NCBI GenBank assembly: GCA_021739805.1
Contig: JAIPBB010000047.1
Location: 1 to 20,588 of the forward strand
From: Saprospiraceae bacterium
GTDB lineage: Bacteria; Bacteroidota; Bacteroidia; Bacteroidales; JAIPBB01
Direction: 5' to 3'
Length of the DNA stretch: 20,588 nucleotides
Shown here: piece after piece, positions 951-20,495 of the stretch
Numbering within the stretch: the stretch's first letter is position 1
Layout: each line of letters begins with the position of its first letter
Position numbers and translations under genes: made by a program
The notes under the pieces: model-generated
What the model was told of the DNA's origin: nothing
Databases searched by the model: none
Seen by the model: only the letters and a program-made list of their open reading frames with translations

Positions 951-982
951 TTTATTTTCAAAAAAAGCCTACCGGCGTTGCA

Positions 983-1002
983 CCCACCTGCCGGTAGGCA
1001 GG
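983..1002. repeat. Hairpin insertion 1 in attC12 (20 bp)
   Basis: It contains cctgccggtaggcagg, a near-perfect palindrome. The uninterrupted attC at 13014-13236 reads gttgcaaataaccc at this point, so the insertion falls between gttgca and aataaccc. A degraded relative (cctatcggtagacagg) is visible near 19707-19722. Confidence 0.85.
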
Positions 1003-1011
1003 AATAACCCG

Positions 1012-1035
1012 CTTGTCTCGACGATTTTTGTCGGG
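1012..1035. repeat. Hairpin insertion 2 in attC12 (24 bp)
   Basis: It starts cttgtctcga and ends tttttgtcggg, so the arms can pair. The uninterrupted copy reads aacccgccgccc here. It belongs to the same family as the insertion at 1269-1293 (cttgtcccga...atcgggg). Confidence 0.85.
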
Positions 1036-1059
1036 CCGCCCAAAAGCAAGTAACCCAAG

Positions 1060-1089
1060 CCTGCCCGCCGTAGTTTTAACGAGGGCGGG
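1060..1089. repeat. Hairpin insertion 3 in attC12 (30 bp family)
   Basis: It starts cctgcccgcc and ends cgagggcggg with the loop gtagttttaa. It is 30 bp and differs at only three positions from the insertion in the recombinase remnant at 2230-2259. The uninterrupted attC reads ccaagttaaaatgc across this point. Confidence 0.88.
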
Positions 1090-1235
1090 TTAAAATGCAA
1101 TGCCAAAACTCTTAGCCAAGTTTAAATTGTCCGAAAAACTTGGCGGTACTTTGTTTATTAAAACTGTTCTGCCGAACAGCAATGTTTACAAGAACCGAAA
1201 ACTTAACAGCAAATCGGCATGACCGCATCTTCTCG

Positions 1236-1260
1236 TTTATCCCGCAGACCTTTTGCGGGG
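1236..1260. repeat. Hairpin insertion 4 in attC12 (25 bp)
   Basis: It contains cccgc-agacctttt-gcggg, a 5-bp stem. The uninterrupted attC reads tctcgcggtcggg at this point. Confidence 0.85.
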
Positions 1261-1268
1261 CGGTCGGG

Positions 1269-1293
1269 CTTGTCCCGATGTTTTTTATCGGGG
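1269..1293. repeat. Hairpin insertion 5 in attC12 (25 bp)
   Basis: It starts cttgtcccga and ends tatcgggg. The uninterrupted attC reads gtcgggttgattt here. It is in the same family as insertion 2 (1012-1035). Confidence 0.85.
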
Positions 1294-1335
1294 TTGATTT
1301 ACTTGTTATAAGCGTTTTTTATCAAAACAAAAATT

Positions 1336-1788
1336 TCAATCTTCTATTGCCTCAATTCCTTGCTCTTTAAGTTTTGCTAATCCGTCTTTCATTGCGTTGA
1401 CTTGTTCGGGTGTGTGCCCTTGCCAAATAGTAATTTCTCCAACAACCTTAAATGGATGTTTTGATCGGTAAGACATTGTTGGATTGCCAGGAAATTTTTT
1501 ATCTGTTAAATTGGGATCATCCTCGATTGGACCTGTGGACTCTACTAAATAAATTCTTTCACGTTCTTCGCCTAATGCAAGTTCAGCTCCCCAAATAGCA
1601 GCATCCAAAGTGGCCGTCAAATAGATATATTTGGCTTTTTTCTTTTGGCCATAATTTGAGTTAAGACCCACTTCAATAAACTCACCAATCTTTAGCTCCG
1701 CTTTTGTGCCGTGGAAGAAAGTCTGGGAAAAAGGGCTTGGACTAGTTTCATTCGATTTGTTTTCTATATTATTTTGCTCCGCAGTCAT
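1336..1788 (-). CDS. arr: Rifamycin ADP-ribosyltransferase (Arr family)
   Basis: Arr enzymes transfer ADP-ribose from NAD+ to the ansa-chain hydroxyl of rifamycins and inactivate them in the cytoplasm. The 150-residue product carries the family signatures: FFHGTKAELKIGE at 24-36 (catalytic-site His26), YIYLTATLDAAIWGAELA near 54-71 (Tyr56) and VESTGPIEDDPNLTDKKFPG at 82-101 (Asp90 or Asp91), followed by NPTMSYRS. Length and motif order match Arr proteins, with a non-conserved extension of about 15 residues at the N-terminus. The start has a good ribosome site (GGAAGGAAA). Cassette ends agree exactly (gttataagc at 1305, its complement at 1871-1879), so this is an intact cassette, like the arr cassettes of clinical class 1 integrons. 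TTTG at 1832-1835 followed by tattattt-like sequence may be a Bacteroidota-type promoter of its own. The family call is firm; resistance itself is inferred. Confidence 0.93.
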   Translation of the reverse strand: MTAEQNNIENKSNETSPSPFSQTFFHGTKAELKIGEFIEVGLNSNYGQKKKAKYIYLTATLDAAIWGAELALGEERERIYLVESTGPIEDDPNLTDKKFPGNPTMSYRSKHPFKVVGEITIWQGHTPEQVNAMKDGLAKLKEQGIEAIED

Positions 1789-2183: not shown

Positions 2184-2438
2184 ATGAACCATTTAATTAA
2201 AAAAATGATTGAAGACATGCAGCTTTACGCCTGTCCGCCATAGTTTTAACGAAGGCGGGGCTTTTCTCAAAGAACTCAAGAGACATACATTTATCGTGTA
2301 AAGAAACTACTTGAATATTTCAACAAACCACCCGAACAAATTTCGAATGAAGAAATAAGACAATATTTTCTTTATCTGAAAAACGATAAAAAATACGCTA
2401 GAGCTACCCAAACTATCGCACTACACGGATCAGCTTAA
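2184..2438 (+). pseudogene. Truncated tyrosine recombinase, N-terminal SAM-like domain only
   Basis: An ATG at 2184, preceded by a GAGG-type ribosome site, begins MNHLIKKMIEDMQLY. After removal of a 30-bp insertion (2230-2259) it continues GFSQRTQETYIYRVKKLLEY, then FNKPPEQISNEEIRQYFLYL and KNDKKYARATQTIAL, ending in a divergent tail and TAA at 2436-2438. This is the core-binding N-terminal domain of phage-integrase-type recombinases; the catalytic domain with the R-H-R-Y residues is lost. The insertion leaves the phase unchanged but brings TAG and TAA in frame, so the gene is doubly dead. It lies opposite to the array direction inside a gene-poor cassette. It is not a copy of the integron integrase in this window, whose corresponding region differs throughout. 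Confidence 0.8.
2230..2259. repeat. 30-bp hairpin insertion inside the recombinase remnant
   Basis: It starts cctgtccgcc and ends cgaaggcggg with the loop atagttttaa. Excision joins tacg to gctttt and restores the codons for Tyr-Gly-Phe-Ser expected in this family. It is the same 30-bp length and family as the insertion at 1060-1089, with three differences. Confidence 0.85.
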
Positions 2439-2742: not shown

Positions 2743-3189
2743 TTATGCAAATTCTTTATTCAATTTCTTTCTTGTATTCATCAAGCTTGCATTTCGAAAA
2801 CGTTTATTTATTTCATTTACTAATTTATAAGGACGATTAAAAGCCTCTTGCGAAATGTTGAAGTGATCTGATAATTTGCGGATTGTTTCTTTTGATAGAC
2901 CTTTCTGGTAATTCAAAATTTTTGATATTGTTCCTTTTGATAAATCCAATATCTCAACCAAATCTTTTGCTTTTAGATTATTACTTTCCATCAAGGATTT
3001 TAACAATTCGATTGGGTCAATATCTTCAAATGAATTATGTTCAGCATCCCATTTCTCTATCAAAATAGTTAATAATTCTATTTCATCAGAAAATTTTTTA
3101 TCATCTTTTGATATTAATTCTTCTAAGATATTGCAATATCCATCATATTGTTTTTTATTTTTTATTACCGTGTATTTTAGTTTCTCCAT
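2743..3189 (-). CDS. higA: HigA-type antitoxin (COG5499-like) with Xre helix-turn-helix
   Basis: From ATG 3189 the protein is 148 residues. Longer in-frame starts run into the toxin gene, and AAAGGA is spaced 7 bases before this ATG. The N-terminal half is helical and acidic; residues about 61-115 form the helix-turn-helix (LLKSLMESNNLKAKDLVEIL, then SKGTISKILNYQKGLSKETI). This layout is typical of HigA partners of the HigB toxin found in Bacteroidota. It should neutralise the toxin encoded 16 bases upstream and repress the pair. A poly-T stretch (on the plus strand) follows the stop. The C-terminal tail (residues 120-148) is basic and variable. Confidence 0.87.
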   Translation of the reverse strand: MEKLKYTVIKNKKQYDGYCNILEELISKDDKKFSDEIELLTILIEKWDAEHNSFEDIDPIELLKSLMESNNLKAKDLVEILDLSKGTISKILNYQKGLSKETIRKLSDHFNISQEAFNRPYKLVNEINKRFRNASLMNTRKKLNKEFA

Positions 3190-3205
3190 TTTCATTCCTT
3201 TTAAT

Positions 3206-3538
3206 CTAATATGCTTCAACAGTATATTGTTTCCCTTGAGCACACAATTTTGTGTATTCTGAATGAGTACCAATCCATTTAATAAATAAATGAACTTTCT
3301 TTTTTCCAAAATGATGACTACATATCATTCTATATTTATTCCCACCAATATTAAACACAATCCGTTGCGAACTTTCGCCCAGAACATCGGCACTATTAAA
3401 AGTAGAAATTATATCGTTTGGTTCTTTCCATTCAACCCATTTTATAATTGAAAGCCAATTCGCAAATGCTGATTTACTTTGAGCATTTTCTGCAACATAC
3501 TTTTCAATAGTTTGTTTTCGAATAAGGTGTATTTTCAT
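3206..3538 (-). CDS. higB: HigB-type mRNA interferase toxin
   Basis: The 110-residue protein begins MKIHLIRKQTIEKYVAENAQ and contains FNSADVLGESSQRIVFNIGG near 47-66 and MICSHHFGKKKVHLFIKWIG near 71-90. These are signatures of the HigB family (PF09907) with RelE fold: ribosome-dependent mRNA cleavage counteracted by HigA. The toxin comes first in the operon, as usual for hig loci. The start lies about 50 bases after the cassette core. In this leader, taaattta flanked by cg (3542-3554) forms a near-palindrome that could be the operator. It is unrelated in sequence to the other HigB in this window, so the two pairs should not cross-neutralise. Confidence 0.9.
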   Translation of the reverse strand: MKIHLIRKQTIEKYVAENAQSKSAFANWLSIIKWVEWKEPNDIISTFNSADVLGESSQRIVFNIGGNKYRMICSHHFGKKKVHLFIKWIGTHSEYTKLCAQGKQYTVEAY

Positions 3539-7182: not shown

Positions 7183-10100
7183 CTAAAAATCAATAGATTG
7201 CTTTTCTATTTTTAATAGTTCTGACTGTATATCACTCTTGATATTTTCGATCTTTTGGTAAAGTTTTGCAATTTTCGTTTGTTCAATTAAATCAGGATTG
7301 TCATTGTCATCTATTGGGAGAGGAATTTCTAATTTTTCAACCATCGTTGGATAAACCTTTGTAAATTCATCTTCTCCTTTTTCACCCTTCCTACCCTTTG
7401 CAATTTCACGAAGAACTGGCTCAAGAACGTAACGGATATAATTGATGTCAATATTATCTATTTTTGGTTGCAAAAGACCTCTATCAGCATTGATGGAAAA
7501 TTTGCCTTCAATTATTTTTATGTAGCCAGCAAATCCATTTGTTGCCCAAGTCAAATATGTACCTTCAAAGTCAAAAGTATTGATATAGGTTAAAGGTTCT
7601 CTATTAGAGGCAGAATAAACAGGATACACGCCTTTGTTTTTTTCACCATACTTTCTTGTGTATTTCCCATTGCCTTTAACAATATTTAATAACTCAATAA
7701 TTGGAAAATTCTTATACTTTGAATCAAACTCTAATTTTACTTTAAGATCGCTAATGTTCGTTTTATATGCTTGAATTTCTTTTTTTAATTCAGAAACTAT
7801 TTTATACCTTTCAACTACTTCCTTTTGGCTTGATATATCAAAATTATTCTCTTCGTCTATTGGAATTTCTATAGCCATATTGGATACATTTTTTAATGAA
7901 GCTCGTAAACCTCTATCAAAACCGTAAATGTGTTTTTTGGTCTCTAGTTCAAGCATTAGATATTCTGGAATAATATTCTCGGAAAGAATCCTAATTGCGC
8001 CACAATGATCGGTTGTAACAAATGGAGTGTTCTTATTGATAGAGTTAAATTCAAAATCCCCATCGATACCCCAAAGGATAAAATTATTATTAAAATCTTT
8101 GATATTGCTATTTGTGTGATATGCGATAGGCTCTTTAACGTTGGCACTGTAAATAGGCAATGAGCCTTTAATATTGCGTATGTCTTTCTTTAGTAATCTT
8201 TTTCCAATAAATAATTCAAAATTATTTTTATCAGATAATTTTATTTCAGCTTTATTTGGAACTATCTTTTTTTTTTCGGAAATATCCTTTAAAAATGTGC
8301 TATACTCAGCCAGTGATTGTGAAACGTCGTTTATAATGCCACTAAACTCAAGTGTACTGACTAATTTATCCTCATCCATAACACCCAGTTCAATCTTTTC
8401 TTCTCTACTCCACCACCTATCAACTGACCAATTATGATCAGGATCAAATTTGGAAATAGAATGAATCTTGCATCTTTTATCAGTATTTATTTTTTCAAAT
8501 ACTTTTTTATTGCCTTTAAAAAATGAATATAAAGTAACAGCTTCGTTTAAATCGTTGTCTTCTAATTCAAAACGATAGATGTCTCTTGTTTCTCCAATCT
8601 CACTAACTAAATATGTAAACACAGGATCTTTTTGAATTACCTTTTTATTATTCTTTTTCGTAATACACAGTATATATGTTTTCTTATTTGTGCTAAAAAA
8701 AGTATTTAGAGGAAGAGAAATGATTCCATCAAGAATACATTCATCGAGAATAAATTGCCTAAGGTTTTTATCGTTTTGTCTATTTAAGATTCCATCTGGT
8801 ACTACAACGTATGCTTTGCCAGTAGGTTTTAGAGCTCTTATAATCCATTCAAGAAATAATCCTTCTACACCCATTGCATTTACTTTAAAGTAATCTATTA
8901 GTTCGCCGTCTTTTTTAATTTCCTCTTTCAGATTACTGCTACCACTCGTGACATAGGGTGGATTTGTTAGGATTAAGTCGTATTCATTATGAACTGCATC
9001 TGACAATGTGCCTAAAATAGAATTGGTTTTTAATATAAAGCTCTCATTGAATAAATTAGAGAATTCTTTCGTTAACGATGGATTCTCTTTTATTAAATCC
9101 GAAAAATAAATCAGCATATTGGCTTTGGCGAGGATAATTGTTTTTTGTTCATCATTATCAAATCCTTTATCAAAACCACAAATTGATATTTTAGGATTAA
9201 TACCTTTTTTGTTTATTGAATAAAGATACTCAAGCTTGGTTATAATTGGTTCCAATAAAAATTTACCAACACCGCAAGCCGGGTCGCAAATTTTGATACC
9301 TTCTTTAATATCATCTTTAGCCATTTCTACAATAGCTCGAACAATTTTTAAAGGTGTAAAAAACTGTCCCCAATTCTTTTTGCTAATGCTTTCTTTTAAG
9401 AAACTTTCAAATAACTGACTTTTAAAATCATAATCGATATGTTCAAGCTTACCATAATCACGAAATCTATATAATACCTTTTTAAATACTGTGCTATAAC
9501 CTTTAACAGCTTTTTGAGCACGACTTACAAATATTGTCCCATTTATTATAGTAGTTCCATCACTTGAAGCAGGAAAAAGTTCTTTTATTTTAGGTCTAAT
9601 AGTTCCGGCGTAAAACTCCAATGCTTCTTCATTAGGATTTTCTATGTTGTAATCGAAACGCTCAAGTAAATGATCAAAGTTTATTCCTTGTGATAAAACT
9701 CCTAGGTCACTTAAATATTTGAATATGAATAACTCAACGAATGTATATAAACAATTTTCAGGTGTTGCGCCGCTTACAGACCAAATGTCTTGCCAAATTT
9801 GTTTAGCAAGGGTTGTTGGATTAACCAGTTGTTTGGGTTTGATTCTATTGTTTATTTCATTAATTGAAAAGGTAACCTTTTCAATGAGTTCAGCTATTTT
9901 TTCATCTTTGGGATTAAAATTGTATATAAGTTCATTGCCATTTTCATCTAAAATACGTTTGTTTGTTAGAGTATTAACCCAAACTGATTCTTTTGTATCT
10001 GTGGCAATTAATAGCTTACAACCAAGTTTTTTTGCTACTTCAATTTCTTGCTTTATTGCTTTGTTTTGTGCGGTCTTTGTTCTAAATTCTGAAGGCTTTT

Positions 10101-10305
10101 TATATTCAACAACAGCTATAACTTTTTTTTGTTGGACAATTATACCATCGACCTTTTTTCGCTCGACACCAGCATAATTAATGTTGCTTATTATACCATA
10201 GTCTTTTAACGCCTTAACAGTTGTAGAACCGATGTTATAAAAGTCCCATTTACCTATTTTTTCTGGATTTTTAACTAAATCTCTTTGTAATAATTCTTCA
10301 CTCAT
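7183..10305 (-). CDS. Single-chain restriction-modification-specificity enzyme (type IIG/IIB-like)
   Basis: The 1040-residue protein combines three activities. An N-terminal nuclease of PD-(D/E)xK type: Asp53 in KKVDGIIV and Glu67-Tyr-Lys69 in AVVEYKK. A gamma-class N6-adenine methyltransferase: GQFFTP 313-318, motif I DPACGVGKF 341-349, motif IV NPPY 448-451. A specificity part with two target-recognition domains starting near 700 and 867, each with the type I S pattern (IYSANVKEPIAY; VYSASNREPLTY), with helical spacers at about 828-866 and 1000-1035. Two recognition domains in one chain suggest a split target, as in BcgI/HaeIV-type enzymes. The gene fills one 3.2-kb cassette with matching ends (gttatgcct) and is intact. 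TATAAT on the minus strand (10354-10359) may be its own promoter. As an addiction-type system it should resist loss. The recognition sequence cannot be predicted. Confidence 0.92.
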   Translation of the reverse strand: MSEELLQRDLVKNPEKIGKWDFYNIGSTTVKALKDYGIISNINYAGVERKKVDGIIVQQKKVIAVVEYKKPSEFRTKTAQNKAIKQEIEVAKKLGCKLLIATDTKESVWVNTLTNKRILDENGNELIYNFNPKDEKIAELIEKVTFSINEINNRIKPKQLVNPTTLAKQIWQDIWSVSGATPENCLYTFVELFIFKYLSDLGVLSQGINFDHLLERFDYNIENPNEEALEFYAGTIRPKIKELFPASSDGTTIINGTIFVSRAQKAVKGYSTVFKKVLYRFRDYGKLEHIDYDFKSQLFESFLKESISKKNWGQFFTPLKIVRAIVEMAKDDIKEGIKICDPACGVGKFLLEPIITKLEYLYSINKKGINPKISICGFDKGFDNDEQKTIILAKANMLIYFSDLIKENPSLTKEFSNLFNESFILKTNSILGTLSDAVHNEYDLILTNPPYVTSGSSNLKEEIKKDGELIDYFKVNAMGVEGLFLEWIIRALKPTGKAYVVVPDGILNRQNDKNLRQFILDECILDGIISLPLNTFFSTNKKTYILCITKKNNKKVIQKDPVFTYLVSEIGETRDIYRFELEDNDLNEAVTLYSFFKGNKKVFEKINTDKRCKIHSISKFDPDHNWSVDRWWSREEKIELGVMDEDKLVSTLEFSGIINDVSQSLAEYSTFLKDISEKKKIVPNKAEIKLSDKNNFELFIGKRLLKKDIRNIKGSLPIYSANVKEPIAYHTNSNIKDFNNNFILWGIDGDFEFNSINKNTPFVTTDHCGAIRILSENIIPEYLMLELETKKHIYGFDRGLRASLKNVSNMAIEIPIDEENNFDISSQKEVVERYKIVSELKKEIQAYKTNISDLKVKLEFDSKYKNFPIIELLNIVKGNGKYTRKYGEKNKGVYPVYSASNREPLTYINTFDFEGTYLTWATNGFAGYIKIIEGKFSINADRGLLQPKIDNIDINYIRYVLEPVLREIAKGRKGEKGEDEFTKVYPTMVEKLEIPLPIDDNDNPDLIEQTKIAKLYQKIENIKSDIQSELLKIEKQSIDF

Positions 10306-13013: not shown

Positions 13014-13236
13014 GGCTAACGGCGTTGCAAATAACCCGCCGCCCAAAAGCAAGTAAGCCAAGTTAAAATGCAATGCCAAAAACCGTTAGCCAAGTTTAAA
13101 TTATCCAACAAACTTGGCGGTACTTTGATTATTAAAAACTGTTCCGCCGAACAGCAACCTTTACAAGAACTACAAACCTTACAGCAAATCGAGTTGACCG
13201 CATCTTCTCGCGGTCGGGTTGATTTGCTGGTTATAA
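13014..13236 (-). other. attC4 (HEPN/DUF3467 cassette), uninterrupted reference copy
   Basis: Left core ggctaac (13014-13020), right core gttataa (13230-13236); the extension gttataaacacaa matches the other cassette end over 13 bases. Perfect 9-bp central arms gccaagttt (13089-13097) and aaacttggc (13110-13118). It is nearly identical to attC12 apart from the five insertions there. Confidence 0.92.
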
Positions 13237-14241: not shown

Positions 14242-14462
14242 TTATAACGGCGTTGCAAATAACCCGACGCCCAAAAGCAGCAAAGCCACGTTACCCACAA
14301 ATGCCGATAACTTTGAGCCGTGCTTATCTTCAATCGAAAGCACGGCGGAACTTATTTATTTAAAACTACTACGCCGAGCAGCAATGTTTACAAGAACTAA
14401 AACCCTACAGCAAATCGAGTTGACCGCATCTTCTCGCGGTCGGGTTGATTTGCTGGTTATAT
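14242..14462 (-). other. attC3
   Basis: Left core ttataac (14242-14248), right core gttatat (14456-14462), whose 14-base extension matches the complement ending at 15263. Perfect 9-bp central arms gccgtgctt (14317-14325) and aagcacggc (14338-14346). The right core overlaps the stop codon of the next gene. Confidence 0.91.
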
Positions 14463-17530: not shown

Positions 17531-18517
17531 TTAGTCCAGAGGACTTCTAACGCCCGATATATTTTTTAACACATGTGTATAAATCATAGTTGTTCTTAAA
17601 GATTTATGACCCAACAATTCTTGTATAGTTCTAATATCATATCCGTCACTTAATAATTGCGTAGCAAAGCTGTGACGAAATGTATGCGAGCCTGCTTTTT
17701 TATCTATCTTAGATTTTTTAACGGCTTTTGTAATAGCTTTCTGAATGGTGCTTTCATGAATCGGTAAACGAATTATTTTACCGCTTTTTTCGAGTTTAGT
17801 TCTTTTATCTGCGGGAAATACAAACTGCCATTTAAATTCTTTGGAAGCATTCGGGTATTTTTTTTCTATCCCATCAAATAATATTGTTTCGCCGTATCCT
17901 TTTTTTAAATCTTCATAATGTATTTCAAAATTTTTCTTTATATGTTCTTCAAGTTCTGGAATTATCGACACCGGCAAAACTGTGGTTCTGTCTTTGTCTC
18001 CTTTTCCCCTCCTAACAGTTATTATCCTGTTTTCAAAATCAATATCAAGTATGCGCAACTTAAGACATTCATTTAGTCGAAGTCCGCTGCCATACAATAT
18101 AGATGCAATAAGTTTTGGCGTACCATACAAATATGATATTACTTTGAGCGCTTCATTTTTCGAAAACACAACAGGTATTCTTGAACTCCTATGTGCGCGT
18201 ACTACATCTTCAAGCCACCCAAATTCTTTTTCCAAAACCTTTTTGTATAAAAATACTATCGCACATAACGCCTGGTTCTGTGTTGATGCTGAAACTTTTC
18301 TCTCTACTGCTAAATAGGTTAAATACTTTTCAATATGTTCTTTTGTTAATTCTTCGGGATGTTTTTTGTTGTTGTATAATATAAAGTCATGCACCCATTT
18401 CGTGTATGCTTCTTCCGTTTTTCTGCTGTATCTTTCCGACCTTAATTTTAACCGTACTTGTTCCAGCAGTTTTGGTTTTCTGCTTACTTTCTTAATTGTT
18501 AGTGAATTCGAATTCAA
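17531..18517 (-). CDS. intI: Integron integrase IntI (tyrosine recombinase)
   Basis: IntI recombines attI with the folded single-stranded attC of circular cassettes. The 328-residue product has the catalytic set Arg147 (SGLRLNE), Lys172 (RRGKGDKDR), His278 and Arg281 (SHTFRHSFATQLL), His304 (LLGHKSL) and Tyr313 (TTMIYTHVL). It also has the integron-specific insertion EKKYPNASKEFKWQFVFPAD (218-237) and the typical ending GVRSPLD. The gene is complete. The only methionine codon is at residue 311, so the start is probably TTG 18517, which gives the same N-terminal length as IntI1; an in-frame ATG at 18550 is cut off by TAA after four codons. No clear ribosome site or LexA box is seen. Unusually, the 3' end faces the cassettes, as in the inverted integrases known from Treponema denticola and some marine bacteria. 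Confidence 0.95.
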   Translation of the reverse strand: MNSNSLTIKKVSRKPKLLEQVRLKLRSERYSRKTEEAYTKWVHDFILYNNKKHPEELTKEHIEKYLTYLAVERKVSASTQNQALCAIVFLYKKVLEKEFGWLEDVVRAHRSSRIPVVFSKNEALKVISYLYGTPKLIASILYGSGLRLNECLKLRILDIDFENRIITVRRGKGDKDRTTVLPVSIIPELEEHIKKNFEIHYEDLKKGYGETILFDGIEKKYPNASKEFKWQFVFPADKRTKLEKSGKIIRLPIHESTIQKAITKAVKKSKIDKKAGSHTFRHSFATQLLSDGYDIRTIQELLGHKSLRTTMIYTHVLKNISGVRSPLD

Positions 18518-19018: not shown

Positions 19019-19083
19019 CCAACCTACGCTAAAACCCAGCTTCGGTTGGCAGGCCCACCTACGCTATAAGGCAGCTACGGTGG
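19019..19083. repeat. Pair of hairpin elements within the heptamer array
   Basis: Two elements lie side by side: 19019-19049 (ccaacctacgct to gcttcggttgg) and 19055-19083 (ccacctacgct to agctacggtgg). Both have paired ends and share the cctacgct motif. They recur at 19389-19488. Confidence 0.8.
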
Positions 19084-19388
19084 ACTAGCAGAGACCAGAG
19101 ACCAGAAACAAGTATCAAGAATCAAGTATCAAGTATCAAGTAGCAAGTATCAAGTAGCATGTATCAAGAAACAAGAAACAAGTAGCAAGAAACACAGGGT
19201 AAAAGGTACAAGGTAAAGGGCATAGTGCAGAGAGCAGAGGGGGGAAAAGCTAAGACGTAAGAAGTAAGACTTAAGAAACAAGTATCAAGTAGCAAGTATC
19301 AAGTAGCAAGTATCAAGTAGCAAGTATCAAGAAACAAGAAACAAAAATCAAACACCAAACAAATCTCAAAAAACAAACAACCAGAAAC

Positions 19389-19488
19389 CCAACCTACGCT
19401 AAAACCCAGCTTCGGTTGGCAGGCCCACCTACGCTAAAACCCAGCTTCGGTTGGCAGGCCCACCTACGCTATAAAGCAGCTACGGTGG
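19389..19488. repeat. Three hairpin elements in tandem
   Basis: Elements at 19389-19419, 19425-19454 and 19460-19488 are copies of the two types at 19019-19083. The middle one combines the left end of one type with the right end of the other. Each is joined to the next by caggc. Confidence 0.8.
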
Positions 19489-19620
19489 ACTAGCAGAAAC
19501 CAGAAACAAGTATCAAGTATCAAGTATCAAGTAGCAAGTAGCAAGAAATAAAAGAAAAAAAACAAATAAATCTCAAAAACCAAAAAGCATAAAATCAGGA
19601 ACCAGCAACAAGAAACAAGG

Positions 19621-19868
19621 AACTCCACCTACACTAAAAAACCAGCTTCCACCTACGCTAAAAGTCAGCTCCGGTGGGCAAGTCGGTGGGCAGGCCCGTC
19701 TCTACCTATCGGTAGACAGGTTCGTCAAAAACCGACTTCGCCGTGGCAGGCAGAAACCAGAAACCAGAAGCCAGAAGCCAGTAACAAGAAATCCACCTTT
19801 GGCGAGATCTCGCTTTGCGGACAAATCTCAAATAAATATCAAACAACAATCATCAATTTTAACACCGA
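19621..19868. other. Non-coding stretch with degraded hairpin elements
   Basis: It contains further broken copies of the cctacgct elements (about 19625-19690), a degraded cctatcggtagacagg palindrome (19707-19722) and a few heptamers (19750-19790). No gene is seen. Confidence 0.6.
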
Positions 19869-19929: not shown

Positions 19930-20080
19930 AATCTTTGATGTAGGTAATAGTCAATTTCAAGCCCCTTAATAACCAAATAACTCAATACCAAATAACTCAA
20001 TAACCAAATAACTTAATCCTTTCTCCGTGTTTTTCCGCGTAGTCCGTGTCGTTCGTGTTCTATTCCCCGGCATCAGGAAG

Positions 20081-20290
20081 AACGGCGTCAATGTAAGGAA
20101 GAGCGGTGTCAACGTCAGGAAGAACGGCGTCAGCGTCAGGAAGAACAGCGTCAATGTCAGGAAGATCAGCGTCATCGTCAGGAAGAACAGCGTCAATGTC
20201 AGGAAGATCAGCGTCAACGTCAGGAAGATCGGCGTCAATGTCAGGAAGAGCAGCGTCAACGTCAGGAAGAGCAGCGTCATCATCAGGAAG
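20081..20290 (+). repeat. Tandem 21-bp repeat, ten units
   Basis: Ten consecutive units of 21 bp, each ending tcaggaag (taaggaag in the first) and containing gcgtca or gtgtca, run without interruption; a partial unit follows. Because 21 is a multiple of three, several frames stay open through the array on both strands, encoding repeats such as ALPDVDA or SVRKNSVN. None has a convincing start, and the flanks look non-coding. Confidence 0.85.
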
Positions 20291-20495
20291 AATGACGTCA
20301 GCTCTTTTACTTCCCACTTCAAAGGAATGGAAAACGCTTTGTAAAACTTGAAATATCTCGGGCATCAAGACCCATGCCTTGACGATAGGACAAAAAGCAA
20401 GTGTCGGGAAATCCCGCCTACACTTATCAGTTACGGTGGATAAAGGATTCCGACAAACGAGCATAATTGCTAATTCATAACTCACCCCAACTTTT
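20291..20495. other. Non-coding stretch, no gene recognised
   Basis: No intact gene or RNA is visible. A small palindrome-like segment (gtcgggaaatcccgcc, 20403-20418) resembles the other hairpin elements of this flank. Confidence 0.4.

Follow-up and report, generated by a model that had tools for sequence, protein, structure and literature searches.

The stretch of DNA analysed here, 20,588 nucleotides of contig JAIPBB010000047.1 from a Saprospiraceae bacterium (hereafter the window), is an integron, with an integrase gene and a run of cassettes separated by attC recombination sites; the open reading frames (ORFs) of the cassettes are mostly on the minus strand. One of these sites, attC12, carries five small hairpin insertions, which are the subject of this report. 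The attC sites have inverted-repeat arms with TAAC...GTTA cores and are arrayed with the integron integrase. A scan of the window returned nine of them (attC4 and 8 further sites); attC12 and a site at position 1876 escaped the scan, and attC12 was assigned as an attC by alignment, its 5′ core reading TACC where the other sites have TAAC. Because most ORFs lie on the minus strand, the printed strand (TAACGGCGTT...GGTTA) is presumably the bottom strand of attC, the one that recombines in a folded form (PMC2727003).

Global alignment of attC12 with attC4 confirmed what an earlier note on this DNA had described, namely five insertions of 20, 24, 30, 25 and 25 bp, each an inverted repeat. The coordinates and counts given there hold: removal of the inserts leaves 345 − 124 = 221 bp, compared to 223 bp for attC4, and scattered substitutions accompany the five insertions. 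Two of the inserts, 2 and 5, are members of a single family (B), to which insert 4 (D) appears to be related, given its similar tail and T-rich loop; insert 1 (A) and insert 3 (C) are families of their own. The common build is a GC-rich hairpin, preceded in B, C, D and the window's copy of A by a tail of 4-5 nt; the tails are CCTG for most copies of A and CCCA for that of the window, CTTG(T) for B, CCTG for C and TTTA(T) for D. Six units, taken from consensus and window copies of the elements, were predicted to fold as hairpins below their shuffles, with z between −2.5 and −4.7. The earlier note had also stated that the inserts make no obvious target duplication. This stood for three of them, while the two of 25 bp, each a 24-nt unit followed by one G, could include a duplication of 1 nt. 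A second copy of family C is found in the window, within a short ORF fragment that resembles, by eye, the N-terminus of a tyrosine recombinase; the reading frame is unchanged across the insert, and two stops lie within it. At positions 967-1000, the start of attC12 reads GCCTACCGGC, where some relatives have GCCTAACGG; the GCCTACCGGC form matches the arm of insert 1 perfectly over 10 bp, as though the hairpin had served as its template.

Insertion, rather than deletion from a longer form, was borne out by related genomes. When attC4 was compared with 79 genomes of the family of G155, the nearest genome found to the window, near-full-length homologues with 88-93% identity were detected in G162 (four sites), G128 and G078. 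In a multiple alignment all six were empty at all five insert places; the core-to-core length was 215-217 bp in all four G162 sites, and the three genomes had no family A copy at the threshold used in the family census. Eight of the 11 aligned attC homologues were without any insert, the carriers being attC12, G155:C70 and G155:C41. Insert D is common to G155:C70 and attC12, and another family A insert is common to G155:C70 and G155:C41; G155:C41 is without D, attC12 is without this family A insert, and attC4 is without both, so that all four combinations exist. Since the homologous attCs of three related genomes are empty, the long form is, on these alignments, the derived one and the short form ancestral. 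G155, a separate genome, has both window B sequences, identical in every letter, at the same positions within attC, and D also recurs there at the same site. These repeated sites and the eight empty homologues show that the inserts are not due to chance, and make an assembly artefact very unlikely, the check having been made against a separate assembly. We found nothing in favour of either a deletion from a long ancestor or an artefact, and the chance that one of them accounts for the inserts is practically negligible.

Table 1. Positions of attC12, its inserts and the other features discussed, in window coordinates.
Feature	Position	Strand	Remarks
attC12	967..1311	.	adjoins cassette ORF 1336-1788 (-); five hairpin insertions; alignment, ORFs, multiple alignment
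Insert 1, family A	983..1002	+	20 nt = CCCA + 16-nt hairpin, after A
Insert 2, family B	1012..1035	+	24 nt; follows G and lies in the 21-23-nt position, insert 1 discounted
Insert 3, family C	1060..1089	+	30 nt = CCTG + hairpin, after G
Insert 4, family D	1236..1260	+	24-nt unit + one G; loop edge of local hairpin predicted for attC4
Insert 5, family B	1269..1293	+	24-nt unit + one G; 3′ arm
attC4, empty reference site	13014..13236	.	alignment, multiple alignment
attC3, second empty homologue inside the window	14245..14459	.	multiple alignment
Second copy of family C	2230..2259	+	30 nt, within short ORF fragment
Integron integrase gene	17531..18517	-	TIGR02249, 396.7 bits vs cut-off 265
Further hairpin-like unit, ~34 nt, six copies among multiples-of-7-nt repeats	19020..19682	+	

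The borders of family A were tested on 101 copies, by asking whether the sequence left after skipping the stretch recurs within the locus when the borders are shifted from −6 to +6. With 6+6 bases, the exact 20-nt unit gave 12 matching copies, a shift of both borders by one gave 6, and the corner shift (+6,−6) also 6, the remaining shifts giving 0-2. The first two peaks were 8 and 6 with 7+7 bases, and 6 and 5 with 8+8 bases; everything else fell to 0-1, and the corner signal was gone. A purine stands before the unit, at position −1, in 104 of 120 copies, and an A after it in only 4 of 120. Insertion is exact to the base, follows a purine and leaves no target duplication beyond 1 nt at most.

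The 16-nt core of family A was found in at least 118 stretches in 257 Gb. This raw count was rejected as evidence, and is uninformative because a similar number of chance matches is expected (about 120 in 257 Gb, by arithmetic); the evidence lies in the 20-nt extension and the flank rule. CCTG is directly upstream of the core in 97 of 120 usable copies, from many phyla, so that most copies are one 20-nt unit. Among the 80 titled stretches of the at least 118, the full unit was seen in Bacteroidota (including isolates L005 and L021), Ignavibacteriae, Nitrospirota-type genomes, Omnitrophota, several candidate phyla, WOR-3, Chloroflexi, Spirochaetia and Deltaproteobacteria. At the level of sequence, these matches establish that one 20-nt family A sequence is present base for base in several phyla. 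Within one family of 57 genomes, 26 contain family A, with 0 to 115 copies each (the maximum being G282, with 115 copies in 3.2 Mb).

The other families were each searched for alongside a control. Family C matched in 12 of 49 A-core genomes, and the reversed-pattern control in none; family B in 3 of 43 A-core genomes (control in 1) and, within the class of G040, named after the Ignavibacteriae title of L067, in 21 of 197 genomes (control in 2). D-like matches, some of them plainly coding look-alikes, were obtained in 42 of 294 genomes, with the control in 8; L398, L400 and L425-L427, among others, were such look-alikes and were left out of the counts. A search of viral contigs for A, B and D gave the family A 20-mer in 8 stretches and no exact B or D pattern. 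Compensating changes in the stem pairs of B and C in many copies suggest that the stem structure is under constraint. The closing pair of B is T-A in 32, C-G in 13, T-G in 7, A-T in 3 and another in 10 of 65 loosely matched copies; in 40 copies of C, the outer pair is C-G in 25, T-A in 9, T-G in 5 and G-C in 1, and the inner pair C-G in 26, T-A in 12 and T-G in 2.

We next consider where the copies lie. In G155, in which some 20 attCs, each near 220 bp in length, were counted by reading, all 7 family B copies (at most 2 mismatches) are in attC sites and in one orientation, at least two of the sites having degenerate cores. An attC motif search of this genome gave much the same counts as its reversed control (14 and 17 versus 15 and 14), and the sequences themselves were relied on instead. 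Reading of 28 family B loci from the other genomes of the class gave 2 clear attCs (L161 and L172) and 2 attC-like sites (L164 and L166); among the rest were a TGTCATTCTGAG-type hairpin and the ends of tRNAs. The proposal of the earlier note that attC is a hotspot was upheld for family B in G155; beyond this genome, attC is a minority target of B. L164 and L166 were at first taken for attCs, and further reading left them as attC-like only: B lies 21-22 nt into them, their far ends read GTTGTT...GTTAT, and they could not be assigned to an integron. At L165, L167 and L185, in three genomes, B stands, by eye, between the end of a tRNA gene and a repeat of that tRNA's terminal bases. Family D was found in attCs of G155, G236 and G300 and in the 5′ half of an attC of G296, and family A in three attCs of G155. 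Of the 26 family A copies of G155, 15 were read by eye: hairpin loops hold 8 of them, attC sites 3 and tRNA-Leu-like sequence 2, while one sits within another A copy and one elsewhere. Nesting is thus seen in hairpin loops, in tRNA-like sequence and in copies of the elements themselves.

Nineteen junctions, selected for being in attC or attC-like sites, were tabulated. Ten of them fall 21-23 nt from the core start (the first window B copy being counted without the 20-nt A insert), including two in attC-like sites and one diverged A-like 20-mer in G155:C14; 6 of the 19 lie 13-25 nt before the GTTA end. From a reading of arm pairing, the 21-23-nt position corresponds to the end of the arm boxes. 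In one attC of Vibrio cholerae, the variable terminal structure (VTS) beyond these boxes can be replaced with little effect (PMC2727003). The hairpin at whose loop edge D lies is a strong predicted one, in the 3′ part of attC4. Orientation could be judged for 12 of 14 non-window B and D copies, the other two being in attC-like sites (G053 and G084), and all 12 agree with the window relative to attC, as does D in G236. The orientation of B and D is the same in the 5′ and 3′ arms, where a double-stranded palindromic target would be expected to give both orientations.

A preference for hairpins in general was also looked for. A perfect stem of at least 6 pairs was present within 12 nt of the junction for 20 of 120 A copies, compared to 5.7% of random positions in the same loci. 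The joined flanks had a predicted energy of −4.49 kcal/mol in a multi-phylum set (n=100), against −3.38 for the control (p=0.011), and of −4.88 against −2.55 kcal/mol in Ignavibacteria loci (n=43, p=0.00015). Pairs spanning the junction were in slight excess in the Ignavibacteria set (p=0.025).

On balance, we favour the view that the inserts are non-autonomous, ultra-small mobile elements similar to small dispersed repeats (SDRs), inserted in trans into folded single strands. The five inserts would be copies of dispersed elements of about 20-30 nt, unable to move by themselves. Their target would be a folded single strand, which in the case of attC would be the bottom strand, also folded for recombination, and the element would enter as one strand. 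Insertion would be carried out by a trans-acting enzyme, most plausibly a single-strand transposase of the HUH/Y1 type, yet to be linked to these families. For an IS200/IS605 derivative one would expect insertion of one strand beside a short fixed motif, with no duplication of the target; a single orientation in clear attC sites and the absence of duplication in A were observed, but the only fixed base is the purine at −1.

Several observations weigh against this reading. Whether a site was an attC or a hairpin was decided by eye, on the basis of core motifs and homology. Where identical B and D copies occupy one and the same position of attC, descent or exchange of attCs may be the cause, so that the hotspot counts are not all independent. 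The consensus of A folds over its entire 20 nt as a single palindrome, which leaves its tail and orientation ambiguous. The hairpin preference of insertion is moderate, and in the multi-phylum set junction-spanning pairs were not in excess (p=0.44). The interpretation of the earlier note holds in part: stems and flank energies point to some preference for other hairpins, the spanning-pair test was null in the multi-phylum set, and single-stranded or replication-fork DNA is a putative substrate. In a survey of 30 Y1 loci, covering about 1.5 kb per side where the contig allowed, an A copy was present in 2, B and D in none, and C in one, at 1.2 kb, while many of these loci carry unrelated hairpins. 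The number of A copies did not follow the number of Y1 genes (Spearman 0.21, p=0.12); genome size predicts it as well (Spearman 0.25, p=0.06) and is a possible confounder. Lastly, G053 and G132 contain B and no Y1 was found in them, two genomes that may be incomplete.

As the earlier note had remarked, no mobilising protein was found, and the linked transposase of the REP (repetitive extragenic palindromic) type that it advised looking for did not appear, the 30 Y1 loci giving no convincing link. It is unlikely, with some chance of being right, that the inserts are classical REP elements moved by a REP-associated tyrosine transposase (RAYT) recognising the tail and the hairpin. REPs are dispersed and consist of a short unpaired tag next to a hairpin of 20-40 nt (PMC3733652), the same size and build as here; Y1 genes occur in 48 of 57 genomes of one family, and A is present in 25 of the 48 with Y1 and 1 of the 9 without (Fisher p=0.031). 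The Y1 genes of G155 at L217 and L230 are flanked by hairpins of their own, with 8-bp stems and in several copies, and L230 also holds a family A variant. This account is opposed by the tails, CCTG, CTTG(T) and TTTA(T), none of which is the GTAG or CGTC tag found at one end of REPs, by the different hairpins at many Y1 loci, by the two B-bearing genomes showing no Y1, and by the prediction that inverted pairs, not single REPs, are mobile (PMC3116915). Y1 as a demonstrated mover was rejected, the association being weak and the hairpins at Y1 loci mostly others. A decidedly improbable route is through RNA, a hairpin RNA being reverse-spliced or reverse-transcribed into folded DNA, as for group IIC-attC introns. 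The fixed orientation in attC and the use of stem-loops have their parallel in these introns, which enter the bottom strand of attC, in the direction opposed to the transcription of the cassettes, and prefer stem-loops; they mostly enter at TTGT/T in R″, whereas the elements lie elsewhere (PMC7923331). RVT_1 was unrelated to family A (9 of 18 versus 17 of 39 genomes, p=0.78) and was not found in five genomes with at least 11 A copies (G246, G251, G253, G262 and G273), and a reverse transcriptase was rejected as the mover.

The inserts might also arise without a dedicated enzyme, if template switching by a polymerase, or joining, at stalled hairpins captured short hairpin DNA. Nesting in hairpins and tandem repeats, and the duplicated tRNA ends beside B mentioned above, would fit; a sharply defined unit and a purine rule holding across several phyla are not expected of random capture, and we consider this origin quite unlikely. 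The same grade is given to landing without any target preference, the variable part of attC simply tolerating inserts. The replaceable VTS of the V. cholerae site, large as it is, suggests that inserts may persist there (PMC2727003), several invaded sites have degraded cores, and most B copies outside G155 are not in attC; against this, the roughly 20 attCs of G155 hold all 7 of its B copies, and a single orientation is not predicted by tolerance. That the integron integrase itself inserts the elements is very improbable indeed: it does bind folded attC bottom strands (PMC2727003), but the junctions are away from the GTT core and most of the A copies read sit outside attC.

The nearest kind to our elements seems to be the SDR class of Nostoc. 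These SDRs, described by Elhai and colleagues in 2008, are reportedly dispersed families of 21-27 nt hairpins that show compensating changes and occur within heptamer repeats as well as within their own copies. The likeness is in size, dispersal, hairpin families and self-nesting; here too, 20-30 nt hairpins in several dispersed families and base-precise insertion with an empty site were observed. In contrast to the Nostoc SDRs, one 20-nt sequence is here common to several phyla, and attC is preferred in one genome. To our knowledge, how elements of 20-30 nt move has been an open question since SDRs were described. A group IIC-attC intron is a far larger ribozyme than 20-30 nt; in place of a ribozyme with an intron-encoded reverse transcriptase, we found inserts of 20-30 nt, and a scan of the window at Rfam gathering thresholds gave 0 matches. 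The elements share with these introns the strand bias and the use of attC and stem-loops (PMC7923331), and differ in size, in position within attC and in having no association with reverse transcriptase. With REPs and REPINs and their RAYTs they share size and the tag-plus-hairpin build (PMC3733652, PMC3116915), and differ by the tag and by having no clear cognate RAYT neighbour among the loci surveyed. The repetitive hairpin elements of sponge mitochondria are likewise dispersed in intergenic DNA, of a mitochondrial genome in that case (PMC2800124). In the papers listed, as far as titles and the openings of abstracts tell, neither these elements nor mini-hairpins in attC are reported, and the matches listed in a sequence-string search of papers were unrelated.

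Other features of the window may be mentioned. The cassette ORF beside attC12 (1336-1788, minus strand) matches Arr-ms, a rifampin ADP-ribosyl transferase (PF12120, 162.7 bits). Two toxin-antitoxin-like cassettes are present, at 314-950 and 2743-3538 (Gp49/HTH_3; HigB/HTH), as well as a type I-like methylase with specificity domains at 7183-10305 and a tandem repeat of 21 nt at 20052-20345, with several frames open. Between 18800 and 19800, repeats are spaced by multiples of 7 nt, and six hairpin-like units of about 34 nt are embedded in them. Embedding of hairpins in heptamer-type repeats is a reported setting of SDRs.

We tentatively propose, with rather less assurance than for the general view above, strand-specific elements of 20-30 nt, one of them identical across phyla, that would move into folded single-stranded DNA and would land in attC at the boundary between arm boxes and variable terminal structure, and for which no mobilising enzyme was identified. 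The elements appear to rank among the smallest known mobile DNA, a single 20-nt sequence being spread over several phyla. Integron sites are here seen to be modified by mobile DNA of a second type, one that may read folded strands. The exact borders, the target rule, the strand bias, and the arrays of near-identical attCs, filled and empty, which act as a natural recorder, make both the mobility and the enzyme testable.
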